A stretch of 64,000 nucleotides of DNA, from contig WIXG01000023.1 in assembly GCA_009869945.1 (NCBI GenBank), positions 248,001 through 312,000 on the forward strand, written 5' to 3'. The stretch comes from Mesaphorura yosii. Lineage: Eukaryota > Arthropoda > Collembola > Poduromorpha > Tullbergiidae. Positions 10,486 through 35,900 of this stretch are shown here, piece after piece. Under the pieces are notes generated by a model, which saw nothing but the letters and a program-made list of their open reading frames with translations, made no database searches and was not told where the DNA came from. The stretch's first letter is position 1. Every line of letters starts with the position of its first letter. A program made the translations under genes and the position numbers.

Positions 10486-10636
10486 CACTTCGAGATGAGT
10501 TTCGGACATCGCCCCAGAACACATGGGTCGCACAGGGCGACACAGCCATGCTGGACTGCGAGCCACCGAAAGGAAATCCAGAGCCGAAGGTGCTGTGGAA
10601 GAAGAATGGACAAGTGATTGATTTGAAAGCGAACGG
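10486..10636 (+). CDS. robo: Robo exon: first half of Ig2
   Basis: Follows an acceptor at TTCTTCTAG and ends before GTAAGT. It enters in the middle of a codon (two bases) and leaves in phase 2. It encodes LRDEFRTSPQNTWVAQGDTA and onward, with the B-strand cysteine and the WKKNG core. LRDEFR followed by VAQG is characteristic of Robo Ig2. Confidence 0.93.
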
Positions 10637-13600
10637 GTAAGTCGATCAAAAATCTGCAAGCAATGCGTAACTGCCATAAAAGAGGTCAATGAGCGTTCGA
10701 ACATTTCCTTCAAATAAGTTGCGTAATGTCTGAAGATTTGCCCAAATCGGACTTCCACTTTTTGCACACCCGCATTGCCAACTTCTCGAACTCTCCGTCA
10801 AGAAACCCAAAGCGTGAGAACGCGCGGTCCGAATTCTGGATGGACTAACTACTAACTACATTACATTGTCCATCAATTTCCGTTAAGTGGATTTATTGAC
10901 CCACTTCCAGTTGGTTTCGCCCGCACATTTTACAAGTGGAGAGATAAATCGTTGAAGCTTAACACAACATTACTCTTTTCGATGTAGCTCACGTACCAAA
11001 AGCACAAGCGTCTGAATTTACTCGTTACTGAATTTGTATTTGCCCTTTAAGGAGATATCGAATTATTGCATCAGGAGGCTTAACCATCTCTCATGTGCGC
11101 CAAAGTGATGAAGGACGATACACGTGCGTGGCCAAAAATATGGTGGGAATAAGACAGTCGAACGCAGCACTTCTTCGTGTCACAGGTAAGTGTCCAGTGC
11201 CCTATTTCTGAATTATGTTAAGCACATTTCTGTCCGGTGTTTCCAGTTTATTACCAATCGATGGCTGATTAAAGAATGTATAACCATTCCTCCGTCATAG
11301 CTGGACTGACATTTTCTGAAGCTAACACTGGCTGAGAAAAGCTGTGCGTTGTATTGTGTCGAGTACAATAATGAAAGTCTTTTATTTTATTGACAGTTCG
11401 TCCCCAGTTCACAATTGTGCCAGCAAACACTTCGGCCCTTCTTGGCAGCGACGTCTCCCTCGCCTGCGTGGCTCGTGGCGATCCACCACCTGAGAGTGAG
11501 ATTTAATATTTAATTTGAATAATAAGAGAATTCTGGGTTCAGTGAATTAGCAAGTAAATACTCCAACAGTCCAAGTTCTTTTGCGGATTCCTTGACCACC
11601 ACCACGAATTAGAGAACATATTTAGTTACAACAATCTTCAGCTAGTGCTCTTTGGCCATGGTTTTTCTAAGTTGGGCTACGAACTCTGATTCTTCCGATT
11701 CTTTTGATTGCTGAGAATCTCGAACTTCATTCACAGGACCTGTCTCCTTGTGTGTATTGATTAAGGAGAACACTCGTCTGGTACAAGCGCTGCAATAAAC
11801 AAATGAAAAATGAACCACTCGCTCTTGTAAGAGTACTGCCGGCATGACTTACTATTTGCAATTTGTTTTACAATTAGTCGCCGCAGCTTCTGTACCAAAT
11901 TCTTTCTTGCAAAAACTGCACTGAAATTGTCTACGACTTCCTGATGCCATCGCCTCAGTTTCTGCTTCCTTCACTTATTGCTTACGCTTAGTCTTGTTTT
12001 TATTTCGTATATTTCTGTACTTTGCCTTATTTTTCTGCACTATCTCCTTCTTTCGACTATTGGCAGCCACGTGTAGATTAGGGTAGCATTTTTCGCAATG
12101 AGTTTCAATGGAATTTCTGGCCTGCTCCTTATTCTTGAATTTGGCTAAAATGGCTGTGTGGTTGCATTTTTGGCATTTGAAGCTGCCGGACATGATCCCG
12201 ATGTAATTTATACCTGCCTTCGCTGTGCCATGACACTTAAACAAATTCTCTTTAAGTATTCTTTGAGGTAATAAATTGACGAAATTAGGAAGTAAAAATT
12301 ATTTTACCTTATCGTACGGATCCATTTTGAAAGTATTTCAATGAGCAATAATAAAAGATCCTGAAGAGATGTCAGATGGAAATTAGTAGAACGAAACTGA
12401 TGATGTCTCCAGGAAATGCAACTCAATTAACTCAACTCGCAAATAAAATGCTTGCCAAAAAACATAAATATTCACAGAAATATTGACAGCTCAAAGACAG
12501 CCGAAAGATGGTATAAGCGAACCGAACAAAACTGCAAACTATAATGCTGAACATTACCATATAGCCATATAAGACATCATTTGTTCAGTGATTTCTATTT
12601 CTTACATATTCTCATTTTGCAGTTACATGGAAGAAGCAGAGCGGAGACTTGCCTCTGAAGCGAGCGCATTTTGACGAAGAAAGATTTCTCATATCAAATG
12701 TGTCAGAGACCGATGTGGGAGTCTATCTTTGTGTTGCCGAGAATAAGGCTGGCTCCATTGTCAGCTCAGCGACTGTCAGCGTACTTGGTAAGCAATACCG
12801 CAAAATGTCTCGTTGTATCGAGTCTGTGTGCGTTATATATTCAAATACCTTACGTGCTAGAAATATTTTGTATTGTCAATAAGCCGGCTGGAGAAAGCCT
12901 AAGAAAGGCTCAACTGTCTCTTGCAAACCTTTTCCATGTTCACTTGAGAGACAATTTTTATTACATTTTTGTTGGTTGATGAATGGCAATGAGACAGTGT
13001 TGTCGTTGTATAAAAAGAATTCAATTCATGCTTCATGCCACCTCACAACACGATGGCAAGTCAAGTCCAACATTCTCATAGACGAATAGCATATACGCAT
13101 GAGAATAATTTGAACACCACGAAGCTAACTTAGCTAACCGTTTGTAGTGTAGTGCATTATACACGGTTACACGGAAGTTCTTAATTAAATATTTACTAAA
13201 CATGTACACCTTGTTTCTTTTTCAGCACCACCAGTTTTAACCGTTGTACCGCAAAATATTGAAATCCAACCAAACACGACGGCGTTTATTGGCTGCCAAG
13301 CTGAAGGGGAACCTCAGCCGACATTGTTTTGGTCGAAAGAGGGAAGTCATTCAATCGTATTCCAAGGGAGCAGCAGTGGCAATGTCAAAGTCACTCCGGA
13401 AGGGACGCTGCAGGTAATGCGGGGCACAATTTTATACTCTGAACCAAGAATTCACTGAGTTCAGCGAAGAAGTCGCAAGTACATATCCCTCTTTCGTTTC
13501 AACTTTTTACTTAATTAGAAAATGACTTTCAAGTGTCTCCGCACCCAAATGCCATAAAAGCTTCTCACAGACCAGACTTAAAATCGTGAATTTGTCAAAA

Positions 13601-16600
13601 ATTTCCTGCCTTCCCGTTTCCCTTACTTTCTCCTCATTCAGGCAGCTCAACAGTATGCTTAATTCAATAACGTGCCGGTGAAATGAAAGAAAACGCTCGA
13701 GAGCAAAAGCAAAATGCAAGATCGTAGTTGAGTGAGCTTTCAAGAGCTCCAATTTCCGAGCCGCCTAGCCAAGCCACCCGCAATGCAATGTCATCTGCAT
13801 CCTAATCCAAATGCACTGCACCGTGTCTTTTACTCATCTTTTTAATTTTGTAGATTGACAACATTTCGGAGCGAGACGAAGGTGGCTACATATGCGCTGC
13901 AGTGAGTTCTTCGGGATCCGTGATGCATAAAGTTGATCTCAAGGTTTGTACATAGCTAAAGCTAATGTTATTATGTACATTATGTGTATTTGCATATGTT
14001 CATCCGAGTGAAAGCTAAATTACAAATAGAATCACTGAGGAAGGCACCGGCACAGATGACGAATCCTTCTCCGTTTTCGCATATGTATCTCTGAAAGAAT
14101 TACGAACTTTCTCCCTACCGCTACCGTCGCTCACATCTCACACGGCATTTTTATAGCAGAATCCTTTTCGGTCCGCCCGCCTGCAAGTAAATTTATTAAT
14201 TAATTAGCAAACTGAGGACGAGGGCTCATAACGTGAAAGAGACTGCCTGGTACACATGTTTTTTGTTGAGTTTACACTGGTAATGGACAAATGCACCAGC
14301 CACAAGCTGGCTGTGATCAAACTTAAGCTAGGCCCGGCCACTTTATGTAAAACTTCAGACTGTTCAACTCAAACTTCAAACCATCTGCTTCACTTTGAGC
14401 AAGTTATTAATCCCTTCAAGTTTAAAGTGCGGTCCAGGCTTAAAACGCAGTGAAAGTTTGAAACTTGACCAAATACTTTCAAAATTTGGGCCAGCACGAC
14501 GAGCAGATGAGTAAACTGTACTACGCCTTAGGTTATGGTTACTGCTGCCACTAATTAAGTTTTGCAATGATTCTTGCTCAGTTCTCTACAGACACAGACA
14601 ACAGGCTTACCACTTCATTTCATTGTCCGTTATTTGTTCTTCAAATTTAGGTTATTGCTTTAGCTTTGATATTTGGTGACATTTGAATAATTAATATATA
14701 TGAATATAATCATATAATCATATATGTAATGAATATCAAATTCTTATATCAAATTTGAATCAACACAACGTCGGTTTACTTGAATTGCAAAGAAAGTCGA
14801 CTCTTTTAACGCCTTTGGGTCAACAACTACGGTCGAAATTAATGGTCCAACAACTTCGTAGGTAATCTACTAACTTAATTATTTAATTCATCAGGTTACA
14901 ACTCGCGAGGATCTTCCACCACCAATCATCACAATGGGCCCTATGAACCAAACCAGACCAATTGGGTCGGTTGCAATTATGCCCTGTATTGCACATGGTG
15001 GAGGTGGTTTCCCAGTTCCAATTCTTACTTGGTACAAGGATGGCAACTCTTTCCAACTTAATCATCGGATTTTTACTGATGATGCTGGCACGCTGCGTAT
15101 AAACGGTAAGAACCAGATAAATTCCGGAATCTTTACAAGCCAGGGTAATGACTCTTCACAATTTGTTCATGCTTCGACTTTGTATTCCGTTTGGAGCTTT
15201 CCGTTTCTGTGCACATAACGTGATTACAGCCTACTATCAGATTAGAATCCGAAGGGACCAACTTCCGCTGTCTTGTTTTATTTCCTCCATTTTTCTCTTG
15301 AATCGAGCAGTTTTCATTTGCTAGACGCGTTCCTTGCTCTAATCAGGAGGGACTCATTAGGACGAGCTGGTCCAAGTGCTGCCTGTATGGATTGCAGCAT
15401 AGCACCAAGAAGGCGCCCGACGTATTGTTTACCCTTTTCTCTTGATGTACGCTTGCGAAGTCTGTGAGACTGGTAAACTGGTATGATGACCGAGCCAGCT
15501 AGCGAGCCAGCTGTTGCAAGACGCTACGATACGAGAAGTGCTGAGATTAAATTACATAGTAGAGGTCAGATTAGTTTATGAAGGAAAATATTTGGTTAGA
15601 GTTTAGCAGTGCGCAGCGCCAGTGCAGTGTGCCAAAAATCGGATTGCTTTAGAGCCCGGTGAAACTTGAGGCTAGCAGTTTGCAAAATATGTTAAAAGTC
15701 TGGGGAATTTCGGTACTTCACAAGTCAACAACTCACAACTACGCTCCGCTGCAAGTTATTACTTTTTCGTGAAGAGGTTTTCTTGCTCAACTTTACTTTG
15801 GGCAATTAAGAGAAATTGTTATTGTTACTTTTTGCGCCGACTGAAAATGGCTTTCGGTTAGTCGACTCCTCGCTCTTGCCCTGCATGCAGTTGTCGAATG
15901 TCGGAGCGAATTTGCAAAATCACTTGGCTATCCTAAAAGTCGGCGGAGGCACGTCGAGATGGAGTAGCCCCGCAGTTCGACTTTATTAAATTAGGGAATT
16001 ACGTGGATTGGAATAGGTTTGCCCGGGGCTTTTAACTCCATTTCTATTATTTGCATTCAGTTATTGCGGTGTCGACAGCGTTCATCTTAGCAGAGTTCAA
16101 GGCGGTTCAAAGTAAATATTGCATTAACTATTTTCTTTCTTTTCGTTTCGTAAAATGTGCAAAGTTTCTGGATTACGAAATATCGACATTGTAAAAAAAT
16201 AAGAGCACCAAACCGTGGCGTGGATGTCAGAGCCAAAGAAAATACTCGCTATTCTTTTAAATATCCAGGAGATTTGAGGCACTTGGAGCCCTTTGAGAAA
16301 TGACGAGATGAGGAGATGAACAGAGCAGAAATCGAATTCCATTGGGATAATTGACTATGAATTGCGTGTTCACTTTTCCATCCCAGGATTCTGGATTAAT
16401 GTACATTTGCACTGTGTGCCATTTCATTTCTTCGAAGCTTTTAATTTCAATTTCTGACGCTTTCTCATCCATGCAATGAGCTTTTGCCTCTTATGTCTTA
16501 CCACTCAATTTTTGTTCTAAAGTACGCGCCATCACAAATAAAATTACGTCTTTCCCTTCATAGATTTGGAAACAAGCGACAGCGGAATGTACGAGTGTGT

Positions 16601-19600
16601 TGCGTCGTCAAAAAGTGGCAAATATGTCTGGAGATCATTCCTCCACGTCGAGCATCCGTCGAATCCACATGCTGTCTTTCGCCGTACTGGTTTCGAAATG
16701 GCCAGTCAAAGGCCGAGGGAACCCATGAAGCCATTTGTCGTGAAAATTGAGTCAACATCAGTTACAATCGCTTGGCACGCGCGTTTCTTACACTTTACGG
16801 ACGAGGAAGACGATCACAGTCATCGGGCAGTATCTGGCGAGGAGTTTCGGCGAGGCATTATCGGTAATGAAGAGTATCAGAACAAAAGGGAAGGCAAGAC
16901 AAGTGGCAGTGATGGAAAAATTGAATTTGGAGCCGTTGACCAGCCTCCTCCGCCTTTCTCGCATTATAATCATCATCAACATCCGTCGTTTTCTCTGCAC
17001 GAGGACAGGAAGCGCTCTGATTCCAACAGCGGTTCAGGATTTCCCAAGCCTCCACGCAACAGTTACGACGATGATGACGATAATGAAGAAGGAATGGTGG
17101 ATGATGATCCGAAAACTGAAAGTTTGATTGAAAAAAGTGCATTTGTCGCAGAAAATGACTACTACAAAGGAAACATACGAAATAAAAGATTCAGTTACAC
17201 GGACGACATGAATGCTGCTTCTGGTGACATTTTATCTGATGCAGCTTCGAAAGGAGCAGAAGAGAGAGGAAATGGCAAAATACGAAATCGATCCCAATCC
17301 CAGCCGTCTGAGCCTGTCCTTCAACTTCAACCTGTCGGCTCTAATCTTCACCAGGATAAGAGTTCCCAGCGCAGCTCCAGCTCAGACAATGGCAGGGAGA
17401 AAATTGGGTACAACGAGGAGGCAGAAAACGACAATCAAAGTCAAAAGATTAATAATTTCAATCCATTTGAAAACGACCGTAATCACGATAATGGTAATGA
17501 AGAAAGCGACGAGAAAAGTGGAGAAAGCTTTGGCCCGAACGACGACGACGACGACGTGGACACGGATGATATTATCCGAGAAGATGACAACGACGACGAA
17601 GATGAGGATTATAAAGAAGAGAAGACAAAATTCCAGGAATCGGTTCGCGAGGCAAAGTACATCGAACAAGGCTCCGTGAAAGCAGTCGAGGAGGGGAATC
17701 GAGGCAGGGACGGTGACGACACTGAAACTGAAAATAATCTCGGCGTCAATAATTTAATAATTTCAAGCACCAGTCGCAGCAGTAGTTCGAATGCAATACC
17801 GAAACAGAAGTTGTCATCGAATTATAAGAATGCAGATTATTTCCCAGCTGTCGTCACTTCAATAGAAGATCGTCCGACGACGACTGAATCTCCGTCGTCG
17901 TCGCTATCTTTCTCAACCTTCGAGAGAAACGCGAGCATCCATCCTAACCAGATTACTTACAAAGTAGAGTACTACAGCGCAGAGGAGTCCAAAACGGAGT
18001 GGCTCCTCGGAGCGACAAACGTGCCAATTGAGATATTTAGGTAAGTTATCAGACGTGCATGGAATATCAACACTTTTTTAATTTATTGATAATTCATGCA
18101 ATGTAACCTAAACAATTGTATAAATTGGTATAACTGTTTACAATTGGTCTAGAATGCTTTACGTAGACTTCAGGACTGCTTTCTCTCGTTTCCACCTTTG
18201 TCTTGCGAATAGATTCAGCTAATTCAATAGCGAATAGCAAGTGGCCATACGACAATGCGAGACGATCTTCCCATTCCTATTCTTGTCTGTAATTGATGTG
18301 CCACCTTTTTTTGCATGTATAAAGATCATTTCCGTTGTTCAAATAGTGAATGTCAATCTTCGAAGATTTGTACATATTCAAAATGAAAAGTGTTGGTTGA
18401 GATTAATGAGAAACTCTTATGTAATTAACATGATCGAAATACAAATGAGCTTGAACTAGTGTAGCATGCCTAAGTACATATTAGGTTAATTAAATTACTT
18501 TGTCCGGATGTCCAATGAATCAGCGAATCTGCTTAGCTTCAGGGTGAATCGAATTCAACAAACACAGGATGGCTGTAACAACTTAACTAGTTTAGTTTAG
18601 TTAACTTCATATTGAAAGACAGTGACGAATGAAATTCACGATGCAGCAGCGGGAGGAGGTTACCAGAATTTGTTTGTGCAGATTAGTCAGCTCTTGCCTC
18701 CTCTTCTCCCTCGTTTTCTTGTTCCATTCACTAAGTGAATCCTTTTTTTATCAAACGAGATGCAATTTTCGTACACAATTCCAACCCATGTTCTCTAACT
18801 CATCATTTGTTTTAATTTCAGACTTCACTACTTGAAGCCAAATACCGAGTACATATTTTTCGTGCGTGCTGTGAACAGTGCTGATGGACTCGTGTCAGAA
18901 CCGAGTCCATTATCGGATCCTGTAGTAACTGCTAAAATGGGCACTTCGAAGTACAGTCTGAAGGATCTGAACGCGGCGAGGGCAAAATTGGATTCAAGCA
19001 TTGTAGTCCTACTCAAGCACGCGTACCCGACGTCGTCCATGTCCATTAAATGCGAGTGGCAGGTGAGAATACTCGGACATCACATGCCTTTATTGTGTTG
19101 CTGTAATTTTGTTTTTGACAAACGATTGAGCTCGAGCACAAATCTGAAATGTGGTTTTCTTATGCTTTCATGCGCGTCCTTTCAACATTTGTGATGTCCG
19201 TTTCCATTCCCTTTGCCATTCCACTGAAATCTTAATATCAAAAACTGTCGTGGACTTTTGACACACATGGCCGCAGCTGGTGAATGCGGGCGACTTCGTC
19301 GAAGGTTTCCTCATTTACTACCGACCCCTGCAGAATAACGACGATGGCAGTTATCAAATGCTAACTGTTTTAAACATTGCTACAACATTTCAAATAACTG
19401 GTTTAGACAAATTTTCCACCTACCAAATCTTTCTTGTACCCTTCTACAAAAATATTGAAGGCAGACCTTCAAATTATATCAACGTTACGACTGCTCAAGA
19501 TGGTAAGATGCAATCATGCTATTTTACTGGCTTAGCTTGCGATGACTTTATACGCATAATATGCTTTATTTTCGCAGTTCCAAGTGTCGCACCAGAACTT

Positions 19601-22522
19601 CTTGATCCTGTTGCTGTAAATAGTTCCGCATTAGTGGTACGATGGAAGTCCGTTCCTTCAAAGTACCAAAATGGAATTGTTTTAGGATATCAGGTAAATG
19701 TGACAACTGCGACATGATGTTGACGTGAATGACGTGTGAAATTCGTGAAGCTGATACCTAAATTATTCTGCTTTCAGTTAAGAGTATGGTCGGGCTCAGC
19801 TTTAGTTGGCAACATGACTACAAATGGTTCTACGCTTTCGCTTCTGCTTAATAATTTAATTGGAGGTCGTCAATACAGTTTACAAATCGCGTGCTTCACG
19901 TCAAAAGGTGTTGGTCCGTTCTCTTCAATGAAGACGTTGCACTTCAGGCCCGATGTGCCCCTCAATAACAATGAGAACAACATAAACGTGTACACTGGTG
20001 GTGATAGAATTAGCGTTAGTAGAGGCAATGGTGAAAGTGGTGCTACAAATAGCAATGGCAATAGAAGGCATAAAGATAAGTCATTAGACGGAAGCAACAT
20101 AAACTTTGGTGGAACTCATAACAATATGGAAAACAACAACATTTTCGACGATTCAAGTGAAGACTTTGATCCAGAAGGGTTGATTCGATCGACAAATCCG
20201 CAGCATCGCAATTTTGACAGTGAAATCTTAAGTGAAGTCTGGTTCATTGCCTTAATCGGTAGTTTGATATTCTTCATGCTTCTCGTCTTCGTGGCAGTGC
20301 TCTACCTGAGAAGATGTCAACTCAGACATGGCAGCGATAAGCTAAAAGGTAAGCCGATTCTACGCTAACTCGAACGCATCATAAAATAGAAGCAGAAGCC
20401 AAAGCCACACGTGTTTAGAATTCAAATGACATTTGAGACTTTATAGTTCCTCTTAATAGTAGTAAACTTTTATCTGTTTGCCATTTATGGGCTTGAAGCT
20501 GTGGTTTTTATTATGATTGGAGTTCATTCACCACACGCACACGTGCGCATGCATTGCACACGTCATATTTCCAAAGTCAAAAAGAAATTAGGTCAATTTA
20601 CACAGAAGGTTAACGTACTGAATGGAATCATTATCGTGGGCATAGTCAAAGCCACCGACATTTACTCTGTAATTTTTGGGCTGGAAAGAGCACTGGATTA
20701 CCACAACTAAGGCTATCTTATCAATCAGCGACACCGGCTCCATGTCAATGGCGTACAATTTTGCGCAGCACTCACATAATTTCTGTTTGCTCATTACAGT
20801 TTCGACAACTGAGATTCCAGATGGCTCGATGCCGCCCCACTACCCTAATGATAATGGTCTCTGGATCGACTCTCCTCACCAGCAGAGTAAACAACTTTCA
20901 CTGAAATCAGTCAAAACGAGTAATAACGACATGATGAATGAGTACGAGAATGGAAATAATTACGCGGTTGTCGAAGAAAGACTTTCTCCAATTGCCTACG
21001 CAACAACCACGCTAGTCAATGGTGAAAAGCATGTAAGTTTCAGCTCCTATTTACGGATAGGGCGATAAAATATGAACTACAGTAATCAAAAACTGATTAT
21101 ATGCTATTTCAGAAGTCGAACTTCAGTCTATTCGGCGAGCCAATTAAGGGCATGCTCAGCCTTGGTAATGGACACGGTCCAGGACCCCACCAACAACGTC
21201 CGTCAGATTTTGGAATGATTTCGGCATCTCCGAAAATACTTGGATGGACGTCATCATCATCTGGTGTGACTGCTGCGCCCATAATTCCAGGAAATAATAA
21301 AACTGGATCTCTTAATATTTGCTCCCAAGATATGAAAAAGGTATTGAAATCGTAAAAAGTTCTATATTAACTATTTTTATGGCTTTCGTGCTTGCTGTCC
21401 CTTCGCTTGTGTTCGACTCGAGATTATGATAAAATTGGACGCTACGCTCCGCGAGACCTAGACGCTTGTTGCTGGAAGCAGAAAAGCAACATCCACGAGG
21501 ATGCAGTTTTATTGGACCTTTTATACCAATTTGTTATGGGTTATGATTCAATATTGAATGTCGTTCGCAGCATGCCATGTTCCCGAAATCGAGGCCCAAA
21601 CTCAACAATATGACGTTGTCAGCTTGTCCGAAGTAGCAAATTTCCAACTAGCAATTTTCTTATTCTCGTCCATTCTCTCTTGAACTCTCCTCCGCGCCTT
21701 CCGCATTCCTTGTAATCATATTTTGATTAGGCCACATATTTCAGACTTTCATTATCTTGCAATTAAGGAGAGCCTGCGCTCGCAGTCTCGCAGATAATTG
21801 AAGTCAAGCTGTGTCAGCTGTATCACATTGCCAATTACAACAGCCCATGCTTTCGTCCGACATGCTTTTGCAAACTTGCTTCCAAAGTAGCTATGTCTCG
21901 CAATTTTGTGAAATTGTGTGCTTTAATTTTGTTTCATTTTCTTGTTTGCCTGTAATGACAGCCATCTTGGTACGCATTAATGTCAGCAGAGCCGTCATTA
22001 TCAGAACCATCATCATCTTCCTATTCAAAAAATTCTCCGAAATATTCGCGGAAGAATATTGAAAGGACACCCAGTGGCATGCTTTCCAAAGCCAAATGGC
22101 AGCGGAGCCACAGCCACAGCCACAGCCCTAACAATAGAAAGCTAATGCCGAGGCAGTGCGATGGAAGTGCAGCTGAACGAAATGATGGCGATGGCGATGA
22201 TGACCCGGTTAATAGCCCAACATACTCACTCCGCTTGTAGTCGTAGAGTTTAAACAACCATAAATTGCAATATGATAACGATCATGAAATGACTCCAGCC
22301 TTTCTTTTCGCAATGCAGGAACTTGGAAAGGGGACATCGCTGAACGTGTTGACAACATTCCAGACGCCATTACCATCAAGGAAGCATTTAATTGTGGACT
22401 ACACGAATGGGCAAAGTGTCAACAGCATTCTACAATATCATGAACCAAGACTGAGTACTTACAGTAGCATAAGTAACAATAACAGTAATCATAATGGGTA
22501 CACCAACCATAATGCGTTCTAG
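10486..22522 (+). CDS. robo: Roundabout (Robo) axon-guidance receptor, 5' end missing
   Basis: This is a single-pass cell-surface receptor. Family members bind Slit and repel axons and migrating cells. Sixteen exons join in frame: 10486-10636, 11052-11185, 11397-11495, 12623-12787, 13226-13413, 13854-13943, 14895-15105, 16564-18040, 18822-19062, 19277-19502, 19578-19693, 19778-20348, 20800-21032, 21113-21340, 21962-22207 and 22319-22522. The first exon opens with the second and third bases of a codon. They encode 1525 residues: Ig2, Ig3, Ig4, Ig5, three FN3 domains, an Asn-rich stalk, one membrane helix and a cytoplasmic tail with a CC1-type motif (SPIAYATTTL). Family hallmarks include LRDEFR at the start of Ig2 and the linker KDLNAARAKL between FN3-1 and FN3-2. 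FN3-1 carries a very large acidic insertion. The Slit-binding Ig1 domain and the signal peptide are not in the window. I see no CC2 or CC3 proline motif. The receptor identity is secure. The last two exons are less certain, and the Robo paralogue cannot be assigned. Confidence 0.93.
11052..11185 (+). CDS. robo: Robo exon: second half of Ig2
   Basis: The acceptor is CTTTAAG and the donor is GTAAGT. It carries GGLTISHVRQSDEGRYTCVA, the canonical D-x-G-x-Y-x-C motif of the Ig F strand, then the Asn-x-Val-Gly turn. It leaves in phase 1. Confidence 0.92.
11397..11495 (+). CDS. robo: Robo exon: first part of Ig3
   Basis: Preceded by TTGACAG and followed by a GTGAGA donor. It encodes VRPQFTIVPANTSALLGSDV followed by SLACVARGDPPPE, that is the A-B strands with the first Ig3 cysteine. 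It leaves in phase 1. The following 1.1-kb intron contains the antisense zinc-finger gene. Confidence 0.9.
11642..12325 (-). CDS. Nested four-exon gene: small cysteine-rich zinc-finger-like protein
   Basis: This gene lies antisense inside the Robo intron that splits Ig3. Exons on the minus strand are 12325-12308, 12247-11986, 11940-11853 and 11789-11642. They join in frame to 516 nt, or 171 residues plus a TAG stop. The start MDPYDK has a good context (CAAAATGG). Intron 3 is a clear GTAAGT...TTTATTGCAG. Residues 31-60 hold C31-x2-C34, then H56, C57 and C60. Residues 101-121 show C-x2-C-x12-C-x3-C, the spacing of a C2H2 finger with cysteines in the histidine positions. Between them lies a very basic stretch (about residues 68-97) that could bind nucleic acid or act as a nuclear signal. 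The C-terminus is Ser/Glu-rich. I do not recognise the family. Introns of 60, 45 and 63 nt are much shorter than most of those in Robo. The 45-nt intron has a poor pyrimidine tract and is the weakest point of the model. Confidence 0.7.
12623..12787 (+). CDS. robo: Robo exon: remainder of Ig3
   Basis: Preceded by CATTTTGCAG, with donor GTAAGC. It encodes ITWKKQSGDLPL, then FLISNVSETDVGVYLCVAEN and the G strand. It enters in phase 1 and leaves in phase 1. Confidence 0.92.
13226..13413 (+). CDS. robo: Robo exon: Ig4, strands A to E
   Basis: The acceptor is TTTTTCAG and the donor is GTAATG. It encodes APPVLTVVPQNIEIQPNTTA followed by FIGCQAEGEPQPTLFWSKEG, which matches the Robo Ig4 layout. It ends in phase 0 after TLQ. 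Confidence 0.92.
13854..13943 (+). CDS. robo: Robo exon: Ig4, strands F and G
   Basis: A 90-nt exon encoding exactly 30 residues: IDNISERDEGGYICAAVSSS and onward. It contains the D-E-G-x-Y-x-C motif and is phase 0 at both ends. Confidence 0.9.
13944..14894 (+). other. Robo intron within the Ig4-Ig5 linker
   Basis: This is an intron of 951 nt with no supported coding sequence. It is AT-rich, with an ATATAT/CATATAATCATATATG-like stretch around 14693-14730. Confidence 0.8.
14895..15105 (+). CDS. robo: Robo exon: Ig5, strands A to E
   Basis: It encodes VTTREDLPPPIITMGPMNQT, then the cysteine strand IGSVAIMPCIAHGGGG and the LTWYKDG core. The PPPII..GP.NQT signature is that of Robo Ig5. A run of four glycines after the cysteine looks like a small lineage-specific expansion. 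It leaves in phase 1. Confidence 0.92.
15106..16563 (+). other. Robo intron splitting Ig5
   Basis: This intron is 1458 nt long with a GTAAGA donor and a CTTTCCCTTCATAG acceptor. The open frames inside it on either strand are short and carry no domain that I recognise. Confidence 0.8.
16564..18040 (+). CDS. robo: Robo exon: end of Ig5 and FN3-1 with giant acidic insertion
   Basis: A single 1477-nt exon. It opens with the Ig5 F-G strands (DLETSDSGMYECVASSKSGK), then the linker HPSNPHAVFRR and the first FN3 strands (FVVKIESTSVTIAWHAR). About 375 residues rich in Asp, Glu, Asn and Ser follow, before FN3-1 resumes at NQITYKVEYYSAEE (from about 17949). Arthropod Robo proteins known to me have only a short B-C loop here. 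The insertion includes Asp/Glu runs near 17066-17110 and 17539-17635, Ser runs, a PPPP stretch near 16945 and a basic Arg-Asn-Lys-Arg site at 17178-17189. About 490 codons without a stop and a strongly purine-rich sense strand argue for genuine coding. It leaves in phase 2. Confidence 0.9.
16776..17948 (+). other. Disordered acidic insertion inside FN3-1
   Basis: This marks the extent of the insertion between the conserved FN3 B-strand tryptophan (codon at 16773-16775) and the C-strand ITYKVEYY. It spans roughly 390 codons, of which 10-15 would be the ordinary loop. Composition is dominated by D, E, N, S and K with few hydrophobics, and it has no cysteines that I can see, as expected for an intrinsically disordered extracellular loop. 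Several stretches consist of GAC/GAT/GAA codons, consistent with triplet expansion. Confidence 0.85.
18041..18821 (+). other. Robo intron within FN3-1
   Basis: This intron is 781 nt long, from GTAAGT to TTTTAATTTCAG. I see nothing else supportable in it. Confidence 0.85.
18822..19062 (+). CDS. robo: Robo exon: end of FN3-1 and start of FN3-2
   Basis: It encodes LHYLKPNTEYIFFVRAVNSA (F strand of FN3-1), then the Robo-specific linker KYSLKDLNAARAKL and the start of FN3-2 ending at KCEWQ. The L-x-P-x-T-x-Y-x-F-x-V-R-A pattern is classical FN3. It is phase 0 at the end. Confidence 0.93.
19277..19502 (+). CDS. robo: Robo exon: FN3-2 remainder
   Basis: It encodes LVNAGDFVEGFLIYYRPLQN, then the strand YQIFLVPFYKNIEGRPSN. 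The F-x-x-P-F-x-x-x-I-E-G-x-P-S-N pattern is a Robo FN3-2 hallmark. The acceptor GGCCGCAG is weak in pyrimidines, but the protein match fixes it. It leaves in phase 1. Confidence 0.92.
19578..19693 (+). CDS. robo: Robo exon: FN3-3, first half
   Basis: It begins VPSVAPELLDPVAVNSSALV and continues through VVRWKSVPSKYQNGIVLGYQ. This is the FN3 A-C strands, and it ends in phase 0. The upstream intron is only 75 nt long. Confidence 0.92.
19778..20348 (+). CDS. robo: Robo exon: FN3-3 end, Asn-rich stalk and transmembrane helix
   Basis: The FN3-3 strands are LRVWSGSALVGNMTTNGSTL and IGGRQYSLQIACFTSKGVGP. A juxtamembrane stalk of about 95 residues follows, rich in Asn, Gly, Ser and Asp. The helix VWFIALIGSLIFFMLLVFVA VLYL (20237-20308) comes next, then the stop-transfer RRCQLRH. 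It leaves in phase 1. Confidence 0.92.
20237..20308 (+). other. Robo transmembrane segment
   Basis: Twenty-four consecutive hydrophobic residues without a charge, from Val-Trp-Phe to Val-Leu-Tyr-Leu. They are flanked by acidic residues outside (SEILSE) and by Arg-Arg-Cys inside, which gives an N-out, C-in orientation. Confidence 0.93.
20349..20799 (+). other. Robo intron after the membrane exon
   Basis: This intron is 451 nt long, GTAAGC to CTCATTACAG. I see no other feature in it. Confidence 0.85.
20800..21032 (+). CDS. robo: Robo exon: cytoplasmic CC1 region
   Basis: It encodes a short LWID stretch and then NYAVVEERLSPIAYATTTLV. The segment PIAYATTTL (Tyr codon 20997-20999) matches the CC1 tyrosine motif of Robo receptors, a known Abl phosphorylation site in the family. 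NYAVV (Tyr codon 20961-20963) may correspond to the CC0 (YAEV-type) motif, unusually close to CC1. It is phase 0 at the end. Confidence 0.92.
21113..21340 (+). CDS. robo: Robo exon: cytoplasmic tail
   Basis: Acceptor TATTTCAG, phase 0. It encodes KSNFSLFGEPIKGMLSLGNG, a His/Gly/Pro-rich part and a Ser/Thr/Gly-rich part ending MKK before a GTATTG donor. If that donor is not used, the frame continues VLKS and stops at 21353-21355, giving a shorter tail. Confidence 0.8.
21341..21961 (+). other. Robo intron in the tail region
   Basis: This intron is 621 nt long with a good acceptor (TTTCTTGTTTGCCTGTAATGACAG). An internal open frame (21392-21613) exists, but I could not join it in phase to the flanking exons. 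Confidence 0.7.
21962..22207 (+). CDS. robo: Robo exon: Ser/His-rich cytoplasmic tail
   Basis: It begins PSWYALMSAEPSLSEPSSSS, then a SHSHSHS stretch and an Asp-rich end (DGDGDDDP). It is phase 0 at both ends, 246 nt. The donor CCG|GTTAAT is atypical. Without it, the frame runs to a TAG at 22238-22240, which would be an alternative C-terminus. Confidence 0.7.
22319..22522 (+). CDS. robo: Robo terminal coding exon
   Basis: It follows a pyrimidine-rich acceptor (CCTTTCTTTTCGCAATGCAG) in phase 0 and encodes ELGKGTSLNVLTTFQTPLPS and onward. It ends in an Asn/Ser-rich sequence (SISNNNSNHNGYTNHNAF) and a TAG. The Asn richness resembles the extracellular stalk. Assignment rests on splice phase, position and acceptor quality rather than on family similarity. 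Confidence 0.7.
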   Translation, partial: ELGKGTSLNVLTTFQTPLPSRKHLIVDYTNGQSVNSILQYHEPRLSTYSSISNNNSNHNGYTNHNAF

Positions 22523-25114: not shown

Positions 25115-25185
25115 GCATTGTTGGTTCAGTGGTAGAATGCTCGCCTGCCACGCGGGCGACCCGGGTTCGATTCCCGGACAATGCA
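25115..25185 (+). tRNA. tRNA-Gly (anticodon GCC)
   Basis: A complete 71-nt cloverleaf. The acceptor stem GCATTGT/ACAATGC has 7 perfect pairs and the discriminator base is A (25185). The D-arm contains TGGTTCAGTGGTAGA (the A box). The anticodon stem is 5 pairs around loop CTGCCAC, with GCC at 25147-25149. The T-arm is CCCGGGTTCGATTCCCGG (the B box GGTTCGATTCC). There is no intron and no encoded CCA. It closely resembles the widely conserved animal tRNA-Gly-GCC and should be functional. Confidence 0.97.
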
Positions 25186-29900: not shown

Positions 29901-32900
29901 GACACGTAAGGAAACGTAGAAAATAATTTGAGCAAGGCATGAACATTCCTAAATTAACGTGAAATCACGGAACACTGAAGACATAATTGAGCAACTTTTA
30001 GCTTGAAACGCATTTTCATTAATTAATGCAATTCCTTGCATTCTGCGTTGTCAATTAAAGACCAAAATTGCGCAAGCACATTATTTCCAACCGGTTGAAG
30101 CCTCGCTTATTGACAAGCACGTGCGACAGCTTCAGATTCAAAAGTCTAAGACGATTCTAATCTAAACTTTGTCGTGAAAGATAGAAGCGGTACCAAATCT
30201 ATAAAAAGTCTGGGAGTGTAGGTTCACCTTTGAAGCACAGCAATCCTTTGGCGCGCGTGTAGACCACAATGATCGCAAGTATGATAAGAATAGCCGGGAT
30301 TCCCAGGACCAGACCCACAATGCCACCTGCACTCAATGCACCTGCAAGAAATTACGTTTCGTCAGATCATTTATGGAATAAACAAAACTCATTGAGATTA
30401 TGAAATCATACCGGCTTCAGGAGACGCGGTTGACAGCTCAATTTGCAATTCAATTGGTTGTCCAAGTTGGTTGTGTGCGCGAAGTCTGTACACCTTATCG
30501 AGATCCTCTTCTTCCAATTTAAAGATTTCCAGGCGGTATTCAAATAGGCCAGACTGATTCTGGGAACAAATAACAAAATGCGGATTCGTTTCGACTTTTA
30601 CGTAGTTCGCCATTATTTTCAATAAATAGTTGCAGCTAAAGTTTCACTTACAGCAAAAGCAATGGGTCGGTGCGCTTGGTATCTTGGGCGTGTGCTGTCG
30701 GGTGAAAGCGGAGGCTCATTGCCAACAAGCCATGAAACTTCGGGGTTTGGATTTGACGAGATGTTGACAGCAATAATGGCCCTTTCCCCAATTCCACTAA
30801 CGTACGCCGGACTGAATCTGTCAACAGCTCGTGGTGGAACTGGAAAGAAAATACGACCAGGGTTGAACGGCACCAGTGAACGGTCACGAATTTCCCGTAT
30901 TAACTTTTAAACTTACATTGAACAATGATGCGTTGACTAGCTGTGTACTCCAGTTGTTCGTACTCAGAGACTGTCTCGTGAATCAGCATACATCGCACAT
31001 CCATTCCATTGTGTTCTCTAGTGAAGGTATATCCAGTCAACTTCTGTCCAGTAAAGTTCCTGCTGTCATTCGTGGTTCTGTCCAAGACAGGAGAGCGGTT
31101 GACGATTTCCATGTCGCCTGTATACAAAAACAGACCAAATTTGAGCAAATGCAAGTTCAATGCTTCATGGGCCAGCAGGAGTCTGGCGTGGCATCTGGTT
31201 TGCTTACCGATGAACCATTTGAATTGAGGTTGAGGCTGGCCACCCTCAGCGTAGCATGTTAGATCAACACCCTGGTCAACTCGTGACACTTCGGGGTCGA
31301 GCAGATTCTTCAGCCGGTTGCCTTCATCGTCAAGATGTGGTCGACTTGGTTTTTCTGGTTAATTAATATGCATCATTAGAACACAGGAAAATATAGTTTC
31401 ATTGGACAATTTCAGCCAAACTAGTGTGCCCATGTCATTCAACATTCTTCCCGCTCCAATAAACTGTAAAATTGGCCAACCACCGTCATTGTCATTGTCG
31501 TCGTTTAATGAAACTAAAGTTCATTCCTACCTCTGCATTAATAATGCATGACTGGCATTGCCGCTGCCCCTTCATGAGCGGTGCAAAGAAATAAGGAAAC
31601 CTAGCATTACGCATAGAGTTCAACAATTTGTCAAGCCACTGGAACTATTCCGCACAACAATGCAGAAAACAGAAATGGATGCACCGTCACAAAAGAGCAA
31701 AATTCTCCAACTTCCGGTCTCAGACGCAGACATGAAGACCTAACAAGGCATTTATGCATCGGTGAATTCGTATAATCATTGCTATTATCGTGGCCATCAT
31801 TTACATATGCTTTTCCAAGTGTGCAATTGTGAATCTTCCTCTACAATGGAATCACACAACTACAATGGGTCATGAGTATGGAAAATGAAGTTGTTAATAT
31901 GTGAAATTGAATAGCTTGTAATTCACAATAAACTCAGCCCTACGACTTAACTGGCAAGGTTCACGTAATTCACGTTTGCTATAAAACAATCTTCGAGGAA
32001 ATATGACACTCAACTTTGTTCTGAATTTCTTCATGATGCAAACACGCCTTTTCCTTCAATTCTTCAACCTGATTAAAGGAACGGCTCAGTTGTTAGCGAA
32101 ATTCGCGACCTTAAACCCTTTCTGAAGGTGGGAGGTTTTATTTCTGTTCTTGCCGTACTAAAAGTAAGATTTTTGAACACTTCATAAAAATATGCAGAGA
32201 ACACAAAGAAGGAAAGAGTGCGTTTTCTCATCCAATTTCCTCACAGCAGGACACTTTGTTCTCAAGACGCGAAATTCTCATAATTATTTGCGTAACCTTT
32301 GGAGGAAAAGGCTGAATTTGTTTTGCCAAAAGATAAGCGTGACATTTTCTAAATGGCAAGGGCAGACATAAATTTCCAGGAGGCAGATTATGAAACTGAA
32401 ACCAATTGTTTCAAAGATGCATGGGCTGAATCCTTACTGGGCATTTGGCAGTCCATCTCATGAAAATGATCCTGATATTAATGGCTAGCCTGGCCAGCCC
32501 AAAGTAATTTACAATTACAAAGAAATCTGGAACCAAAACCATAAACATAAACCTGGTCTTATCTACCTAACCTAACCAACCCACGACAGACATGAGCTTC
32601 GTCTACTTCGTGCGTCCCGGCCTTTACTCGTTACGTGCAAGACAAGATTACAAAACCGAACCAAAGAGATGAGATCAGGAAGGTCATCAACACTCATTAT
32701 CATTAATAACACTGCTTTCTGCTATTCAGTCTCCTTTTCACGTCTTTCTTCTATGGCGAAAATAATGTGCAAGGGGAATCTCGACCGCTCAAAAGATTTT
32801 CGCCTCGAGACAAAAATTCTCAATGTCAAATTGCAAAAGGGATGAAACACAGCTGCATAGCGCATAGAAACAAAATACGCAGGGCGAATTCCTGTTTCAA

Positions 32901-35900
32901 GTAGTCTCATTCTTACGTCGCGTCTGTCTTGCACAACCAACAGCCAAAATGCAATGCTTATTGCTAAAATCCAAGTAAGATGTGTTTTACATCAAGCATC
33001 AAGCTTCATTATTGCGCTGCATATTTTGAATGTTTAATAATTTGTACACACGTTTTTCAGCCGTTGTAAAATTAATGTCTCGTCGTTTATGGATAACTTA
33101 ATGCTCAATGCTTCGTTTTCCCTTAAAACCTTTGTCTTGTGCAAAAAAATTTTGGTTCGACATCCGTTTTTTACTTGCAGGTTATGATTATGATGAATTG
33201 TCGACGTTCAAAGTTGCATGGAATTGCGAAGGCGAGGAATTCAAAAAATGAAGTTTACTCCATGGACGATGTGATGAATCAAGAATTTCTGTCAGACCCG
33301 ACGTTATCTTTGTCCTTTATCCAACAGCCTACGAGGTTCTCCCTAATTTAATTGATGTTGATAGTGAATTCTAATTGGCAGGCAAATAGCGAACTGTCTC
33401 CTGCTCATGTCCAGTCGTCAATTTAAATGATTTTGACTTACTCAGAATCTTCAAGTCCACCATGCCAGTGTATGCTCCTCCAGAGGCAAGAATCAATTTG
33501 CATTCCCATTGTGCCCGATCCTCGTCCTTCACGATGCTGATGACAAGACCACATGATCCGCGATCCAGCCCATCTCCAGTGTAAGAGTAACCGGGTGCAG
33601 CGGTGCTTGGCAGCCCGGATCTGTCACTGCCAGGAAGGAAGGACACGAAAAATGGACTTCCTTTTCGTTCCCACAAACAGACCGCCAGTGGCTCCCGGTA
33701 ACTTTCACAAGTGAAATTGGCTGAATATCCAGTTCTGGCTATCACTTCAGGGGTTGGCACTTGTGCGGGGCGATTGCCTGCACCCTGGCCATTTGTACAA
33801 GAGATCAATCCTGCAAAAGAGAAGAAAGGGCATAAGTTAGTGACTTGCACGTGCACAAAATGAGAGCCACATGCTCTCGATTTCATTTTCAGGTTAGGCT
33901 GCGATTGAGCAAATTATTAAAGCTAAAGCAAGCGGAATGCTTTTAGCACCTTAAATATGAAAGCCATCATCAAGGCAGAAGGCGAACCAACACCCATTAA
34001 AAATAATGACATTTAATAATTGTGTATTAATGTTTCATTTCATCATTCGCGTCCGACGCCAGTCAACCGAGAAATATTCTTGCGCCTTATGGTACAGCTT
34101 CTATCACAAAGTTACCTCGAATACTTCCACTTCTTACTGCGGCTTTGGAATACAATTCATACAACTTTCTCGTAAACTGCGACTGAACTCAGACAAAGAA
34201 GAATTTATAATTAATTAATTCTTGCTTTCCTCTGCCGTTCTGCCGTAATGTAAATATTCAAGTTGGTAAACACCCGAAAAATGAAACTCAAGCGACACTG
34301 GCGCTGACAAGTTTCATGAAACAAACGCTGGTATTCTTGCTTGGTGCTTATTAAATATTCACAAAATTGAGTCCGTCGCTTGTGGTTTTTGGTTTACCTT
34401 TTTAACCTTAATCTCGAGCTCATTGGGCATCGGCTAATTTCAACTTGTGACTCAGCCTGCCGTTGTGAGTTCAAGCGATCTTTCAAAACAAGCAAGCAGT
34501 CAATCTTCAATTTATTGTGTTTGATCAAAAGCTGAGCCTCGATCAATGCAGCTAGAATTGTGTCAATGCAGGCCCATGTTCAATTTTCACCCGTCGGACA
34601 GGCTTTTAGGTGTTAGGGCGCATGCAATCTTTAAACGGTACAAAATATCATAATTGAATTTTTAAAAAAAACTACACAGACACTTATTCATTCAGTTCGT
34701 CCGTAGTTCACAGCAATTAAGCCGTATCACAACATTATAGGTTGTAACTAGCAGAAGTCATTAACAAAACCTACGTTGCAGCAAAGTGATAATTTAAAAA
34801 ACAGTATTAAGCCAGGGATAAATCCCTGGCAAGTCAGCGAAGAGTGAATAAATTGTGGCTAATCTTATCCAAGAACTGTACAATGTTGAGCCAAGTAACC
34901 GCACGTACGCGTACGTGAAAATGAGAAATAAGATTTCGGGAGCGAGAATTAACGTTGAACTTTTAACACTTTTTGACTTTCGAAGAAATAAAGTAACGAA
35001 GTGAACACTCATTAAATTCGACGTTCTCCTTTCAACTTGAAAATCTCTTCGTGTTGTGACGGATGGCATAAAATATGGTGGAGGAGATTAGCTTTTAAAG
35101 TTCATTGCCAACTCACGCAGTTAAACACTTGGGAGCTTTGTGTGTGAGGTTTGTAGTTTGTGATATCGATGCGGTGCCAATAACACCACACCAGCATCAT
35201 TATCATTTTAGAAATGTGTGAACCGTGAATGCTACATGTTACAAATGGTTACGTTGGTAATACATCTGCGTTTTGTTGAAAGATGATTATATGTCGGTCA
35301 TAAAAGGCTCCAAATTGGCTACAAGCAAGAGCGAGCCAAAATAGACTGCAGCTTTTAACTGGCAAAGGTCAAGATAACTTTCCATTTAAAAATTCTGCTT
35401 TGCCCTTTCCTGTGATGGGTTAAACTTCCTGCAGTTCATTTTTGTCGTTCCAGATACGATTCCACTTCGTAACCCGCTTGTGGTACGACTTCCTCCTTTA
35501 TTTTTACCAAAGAAAACAGGCGAAATGCTGGCAGTTGAACTAATCTTATTTATTTTGCAACAAAAAATAATGGCAATGATTCGTAGCCGCATGCCAAAGA
35601 AATTGTACCTCAAATGTCGGAAAAGAAAACAAAGACAGATGTTTCATTTCTGCTTCAGCAGATGCAGGCCTGTGGTTCGAGATTGAAATCAGGAAATCGT
35701 CCAACACGGTAATTAAATTAGCCAATTGTCTGGCCCTACTTTATTTTATCAGCTTGACTTAGAACCACAAACCGTTATCAGCAAATTGCTTTCGCAAGTC
35801 GCAAGTAATTACGAATAGAACCTCCCCAAATGTCAATTCTAAGAATGAGGAAATGGAATAGAAATCGTTCATAATGTTTAGTGACTAGTGAGCGATGAGA

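Follow-up and report, generated by a model that had tools for sequence, protein, structure and literature searches.

Roundabout (Robo) receptors such as human ROBO2 and ROBO3 and Drosophila Robo1 carry five immunoglobulin (Ig) domains and three fibronectin type III (FN3) repeats followed by a transmembrane segment. This ectodomain plan is broadly conserved, and the exceptions named in the excerpts consulted from two papers are domain losses only (PMC5919748, PMC7580999). Silkworm BmRobo1a/b and vertebrate ROBO4 are, in such partial accounts, exceptions to the 5+3 plan at FN3-1, being without Fn1 (and Ig domains); the lack of Fn1 in silkworm Robo1a/b is given by both papers (PMC5919748, PMC7580999). 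According to the excerpt of PMC5919748, Drosophila Robo1 can lose any single Fn repeat and still mediate repulsion, while the receptor lacking Fn1 is raised in neuronal cell bodies, and the fly FN3-1 is thus not without any role. For the mammalian receptors, the portion of PMC7083938 at hand reports that Robo3 FN1 put into Robo1 yields a pure monomer, describes the Ig5–FN1 linker as one flexible point and concludes that FN1 can determine both the state of oligomerisation and whether the conformation is open or closed. A similarly partial account has NELL2 contacting the CDFG sheet of Robo3 FN1, the contact residues being kept in chordate and not in protostome NELLs.

To our knowledge, the closest layout to the one described here is that of the insulin receptor insert domain, and the likeness is one of layout only. 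The insert domain sits in an FnIII-2 loop, is about 120 residues in size and requires chain-linking cysteines. It is intrinsically disordered and contains a furin site at residues 720-723 (excerpt of PMC7039211). Among the open-licence papers listed, we found no report of a Robo with a disordered, low-complexity or acidic insertion, or with an insertion in an FN3 B–C loop.

Here we analyse a Robo gene, Robo-A, in a 64,000-nucleotide window of the Mesaphorura yosii genome. Robo-A shares the 5 Ig + 3 FN3 + transmembrane plan of human ROBO2, ROBO3 and Drosophila Robo1 and is a known receptor type; its 388-residue FN3-1 loop is a new variation. In contrast to BmRobo1a/b and ROBO4, Robo-A keeps Fn1 and has it enlarged. 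Like the insulin receptor, it is an FN3-domain receptor with a disordered insert bearing a dibasic protease motif, but the receptor is unrelated, the loop is a different one, and the insert is about three times longer, has no cysteine and carries its motif at a frequency not above chance.

Results

Five Ig domains were recognised in Robo-A by tblastn with human ROBO2 Ig1–Ig4 and by alignment of Ig5, with Ig1 located just upstream of the window (L020, 8725-9201) and Ig2–Ig5 within it. On the forward strand, and with approximate ends, Ig2 extends over 10497-11172 (pieces ~10497-10628 and ~11050-11172; E 8e-9 and 2e-6), Ig3 over 11402-12783 (pieces ~11402-11491 and ~12622-12783; E 3e-10 for the second) and Ig4 over 13225-13946 (pieces ~13225-13416 and ~13860-13946; E 2e-8 and 2e-4). 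For the first piece of Ig3 the evidence is limited to a weak hit with the Ig4 query (E 0.04) and a by-eye reading of the open reading frame (ORF) list. Judged by its sequence, Ig1, the domain of Slit binding in Robo/Roundabout, is present and Robo-like.

Exon ends between 14895 and 20348 were set from the reading frame and GT/AG ends. The forward-strand exons encode the first part of Ig5 (14895-15105, also aligned with ROBO2), the end of Ig5 with the interrupted FN3-1 (16564-18040), the FN3-1 remainder and FN3-2 start (18822-19062), FN3-2 (19277-19502; Pfam fn3 on the containing ORF, E 5.5e-7), the first part of FN3-3 (19578-19693), and finally the FN3-3 end, a juxtamembrane linker and the transmembrane segment (19778-20348). 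Three fn3 stretches follow Ig5, with an overall E of 9.4e-24 when the insertion is excised. Searched against PDB, the joined Ig5–FN3-3 sequence matched ROBO2 best (E 3.1e-70), followed by contactin-2 (E 2.9e-29), in agreement with the Robo identity proposed in the initial annotation. By eye, the transmembrane segment VWFIALIGSLIFFMLLVFVAVLYLRR is similar to VWFIVLMGLLLFIFLLLLVIILYTKR of a paralogue (Robo-C below; L013). An ORF at 20673-21068 on the forward strand (ORF bounds, not exon ends) contains cytoplasmic Robo-like sequence (GLWIDS ... SPIAYATTTLV), and NNYAVVEERLSPIAYATTTLV of Robo-A resembles by eye a sequence of the same paralogue (TLWIDQRWRP ... TPYATTTLI) that we take to be of CC0/CC1 type. 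No CC2 or CC3 was recognised by eye in the listed ORFs of at least 45 aa between 20600 and 26500. With five Ig domains, three FN3 repeats, a membrane-spanning segment and cytoplasmic sequence like that of Robos, the receptor looks complete. The Asn/Asp/Ser-rich juxtamembrane linker (~19970-20235; FoldIndex -0.22 over 87 residues) is long at about 90 residues, compared with 46 residues in Drosophila Robo1 (excerpt of PMC7580999).

The exon at 16564-18040 (acceptor ACGTCTTTCCCTTCATAG/ATT, donor TAG/GTAAGT) covers the last part of Ig5, strands A and B of FN3-1, the insertion, and FN3-1 from strand C onward. Read from 16566, its frame has no stop in 491 codons, against 9 and 45 stops in the other two forward frames. 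The insertion itself (16788-17951, forward strand) is flanked by TIAWHARF (WHARF) on the 5' side and ITYKVEYY on the 3' side. The initial annotation had proposed a single open exon in which FN3-1 is split by about 375 Asp/Glu/Asn/Ser-rich residues; the single exon and the composition stand, and the length is corrected to a counted 388 residues. Shuffling the mononucleotides of the insert DNA 2000 times put a mean of 22.3 stops, and at least 9, into the same frame; in seven noncoding stretches of the Robo-A gene with approximate limits, the longest forward-strand run without a stop was 73 aa. The open frame of the insert is thus not due to chance. Base composition by codon position is uneven and exon-like in the insert, whereas the two introns taken for comparison show a flat profile; at the third codon position the insert resembles the other exons. 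As the exon stands, the 388 residues would be translated.

The whole exon from 16566 matched no Pfam family at E<=1. With the 388 residues excised, FN3-1 matched Pfam fn3 at 36.2 bits (cut-off 25; E 7e-9) over profile positions 8-81 of 84, and a PDB search placed Robo FN1 domains at ranks 1, 3, 4 and 5 of 14, with titin at rank 2. These Robo hits were 1uem, two ROBO3 chains (6pog/6pol) and ROBO2 6iaa; 1uem was deposited as KIAA1568 and its printed sequence is ROBO2 FN1. Since excision gives back a recognisable Robo FN1 domain, the stretch is an insertion rather than a misjoined gene, and the same matches place the break between strands B and C, both as originally annotated. The B–C loop of ROBO2 and ROBO3 is about 6 residues longer than that of excised Robo-A, whereas Robo-A as it stands carries 388 residues extra.

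The insert is rich in Ser (51), Asp (45), Glu (41), Asn (36), Gly (26), Lys (23) and Arg (22) and has neither Cys nor Trp. Its 86 acidic residues against 45 basic ones give a net charge of -41, nearly half of which falls within one 45-residue block. This main acidic block (17502-17636, forward strand) contains 23 D/E and 5 K/R, and a first, smaller acidic block, SYDDDDDNEEGMVDDD, lies at 17061-17108 on the same strand. When the insert was divided into 13 consecutive stretches, each of 28-30 residues, the charge was -14 in one, -10 in another of 30 residues, and between -3 and +2 in 8 of the 13. The description of the loop as strongly negative therefore fits the two acidic blocks and does not fit the loop as a whole. 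The highest net acidity per 25 residues is 16, a value reached by 0.04% of shuffles. Disorder prediction on the joined protein, suggested in the initial annotation, was carried out with FoldIndex, a crude disorder measure. It returned -0.31 for the insert, where all 14 windows scored were negative, whereas the averages were +0.14 over Ig5 plus the beginning of FN3-1 and +0.23 over the rest of the FN3 region; of 19 windows outside the insert, 3 were negative, including two at the juxtamembrane end. By composition the insert is disordered, and it would probably be so in the folded protein.

Motif counts were judged against 5000 composition-matched shuffles of the insert. Ser-Gly-acid triplets were the sole standout, with 3 found where 0.76 would be expected, a count that 3.5% of shuffles reached (with no correction for the several motifs examined). 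Acidic-tyrosine sites numbered 2 (0.92 expected; 23% of shuffles), Ser-Gly with many acidic neighbours 1 (0.39 expected; 33%), and acid-x-x-Ser-Gly-acid 1 (0.17 expected; 16%), while N-glycosylation sites numbered 3 against 5.7 expected. Functions assigned to the insert from its motifs were rejected because most of these counts are at chance level. A foreign or mobile origin was also considered and rejected. Among 12 candidates scored, the genome gave no further match to the insert at E<=1, and no Pfam family matched at E<=1, although simple sequence may hide matches. An IMG/VR scan gave 13 pattern matches, none of them a relative.

Three Robo genes were found in the genome by searches with Ig5–FN3 and with Ig1–Ig3, which gave three Ig1 and three FN3-1 copies among the best candidates scored, and only Robo-A carries the insertion. 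By contig reading, Robo-B has its Ig1 on C495 (L028) and Ig2 to cytoplasm at C491:4474-13868, and Robo-C has Ig1–Ig4 at the end of C491 and continues from Ig5 into the cytoplasmic part at the beginning of C235 (L013); the contig ends suggest that the halves of each gene belong together. Both paralogues resemble Robo-A in their Robo exons, their transmembrane and cytoplasmic sequences and, apparently, the site of the Ig5 intron (by eye). Their FN3-1 likewise lies in one open exon but has a short loop, of 15 and 19 residues from the Trp to YTLESY/FTLESY (WTWSWPTKLRTPALLGYTLESY; WMWTVPTKQIPFSRTQPLLGFTLESY), compared with the 388-residue insert of Robo-A. The short loop previously asserted to be usual in Robos is found in human ROBO2 and ROBO3, in Robo-B and Robo-C and, going by domain size, in Drosophila Robo1, whose Fn1 as deleted comprises 111 residues in total. 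In the FN3-1 exon, Robo-B and Robo-C share 71% of 179 aligned aa. The FN3-1 of Robo-A shows 27% and 31% identity to these two and 39% and 40% to human ROBO2 and ROBO3, so that Robo-A is apparently no recent copy of Robo-B or Robo-C. Scoring 150 of 184 candidates across the genome gave 132 fn3 matches, the longest of which covered no more than 408 bases. Robo-A FN3-1 is not among them, and a survey for split FN3 domains made in this way would therefore miss like cases. Searched for other markers, the genome gave no COX1 hit, and its arginine kinase pieces resemble arthropod enzymes by their PDB matches, of which the top one was a two-domain enzyme scored on both halves. A search for the Comm family found nothing, although its control gave no signal either.

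Two further features of the paralogues were observed. Robo-B and Robo-C are probably arranged in tandem, C491 (L025, L026, L027) holding one receptor body and Ig1–Ig4 of the next gene, and in both, FN3-1 and FN3-2 are joined by an acidic linker, FRGS...DEEE. At the 3' side of Robo-B (L026, 6419-9873), hydrophobic ORFs resemble chemoreceptor exons by eye.

Discussion

We favour, with a probability of roughly 0.55, the reading that the insert is translated and acts as a bulky, partly anionic spacer at the Ig5/FN3-1 hinge. Because both of its halves are present, FN3-1 would still fold, with the insert looping out as an unstructured chain. The B–C loop lies at the N-terminal pole of the FN3 fold, which would put this chain at the hinge between Ig5 and FN3-1. 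Generic chain scaling gives it an estimated radius of gyration of about 6-7 nm (5.7 and 6.8 nm). Such an anionic bristle would disfavour compact or oligomeric packing of the ectodomain, leading to an open, more monomeric receptor, and would keep other polyanions away from its vicinity; Ig1 should still be able to bind Slit. An effect on packing may be argued from the mammalian Robo1/Robo3 findings, by which analogy the loop could alter how Robo-A packs on the cell surface. A loop of this size could be tolerated in FN3-1 because the repeat is individually dispensable in Drosophila Robo1 and missing from silkworm Robo1a/b. If translated, Robo-A would offer a natural test of whether FN3-1 sets receptor packing, the conclusion drawn from the mammalian Robo1/Robo3 chimaeras.

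The main rival, which we hold to be possible but clearly less probable, is that the loop is translated and idle, having grown as low-complexity sequence in a weakly constrained domain with no consequence for signalling. The same fly and silkworm observations, known from partial sources, speak for such weak constraint. Short imperfect GAC/GAT-rich direct repeats, 71-81% alike, occur in and near the acidic blocks and suggest growth by slippage; the juxtamembrane linker of Robo-A is likewise disordered by FoldIndex, and the insert is without other match in the genome. In the one species examined, the insert may be young and idle. Against this, 388 open codons stand beside runs of no more than 73 aa in the noncoding stretches of the gene, and the peak of net acidity, reached in so few shuffles, indicates order beyond composition, although slippage alone could explain it. 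An idle loop would show how much extra length an axon-guidance receptor can take on with nothing lost.

A more ambitious reading, on which we place rather little weight, takes Robo-A for a derived receptor with the loop as a working module. The loop would be a conserved, anionic arm at the Ig5/FN3-1 hinge, perhaps carrying sugars or undergoing cleavage, that would hold the ectodomain open or act as a competitor of heparan sulfate. The three Ser-Gly-acid motifs would then be candidate sugar-attachment sites, and the lineage would have a Robo with a built-in regulator.

It is unlikely that much or all of the stretch is an exitron or alternative intron, spliced out to leave a usual receptor with a short loop. 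FN3 homology does restart directly after an AG at 17951, and weak splice-like sites are present within the insert, including internal GT/AG sites such as 16864/17865, whose use would take out 334 codons in frame. Scored with generic weights untrained on this species, however, the best of 849 in-frame pairs at least 300 bases apart reached 6.8 bits (donor plus acceptor), and the best of 158 pairs taking out at least 330 codons reached 5.4 bits, compared with 9.0, 9.9, 12.8, 13.1 and 15.0 bits for five real Robo-A introns. The coding-like composition of the insert by codon position also argues against removal, and an exonic intron was rejected as the main reading on both site strength and coding signal.

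We give little credence to a processed receptor, in which a proprotein convertase would cut at RNKR (17178-17189, forward strand) to produce a two-chain Robo. The insulin receptor, with its disordered insert domain and furin site (PMC7039211, in excerpt), provides the precedent, and this possible R-X-[KR]-R motif is the only one in a loop of disordered composition. Such a motif, which might provide the protease-sensitive hinge envisaged in the initial annotation, nevertheless arises in 12.5% of the composition-matched shuffles and is thus not above chance, and there is no cysteine among the 388 residues for linking the chains. An assembly or sequencing error joining foreign sequence into the exon is highly improbable: the assembly is fragmented (1127 contigs) and Robo-B and Robo-C apparently break across contigs, which is nothing specific to this stretch, but the stretch is internal to a 420,839-base contig, is in frame with both flanks without a stop, and has no second genome copy that could be found.

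Neighbouring features

Several other features were noted in and beyond the window. Within a Robo intron, two adjoining reverse-strand ORFs (11761-12298) contain repeated Cys pairs and match no Pfam family above cut-off. Further reverse-strand ORFs with Ig-like domains lie at 30900-33913 (Pfam C2-set_2, E 1.6e-5, over the cut-off; Ig_3, E 5e-4, under it). A tRNA gene is located at 25115-25185 on the forward strand (Rfam RF00005, 65.5 bits). Elsewhere in the genome, a receptor with Ig and FN3 domains and a transmembrane segment, judged by eye to be DCC/neogenin-like (L008; G000:C938:12280-14817, reverse strand) forms one open frame of 1218 aa and is apparently intronless over this interval.
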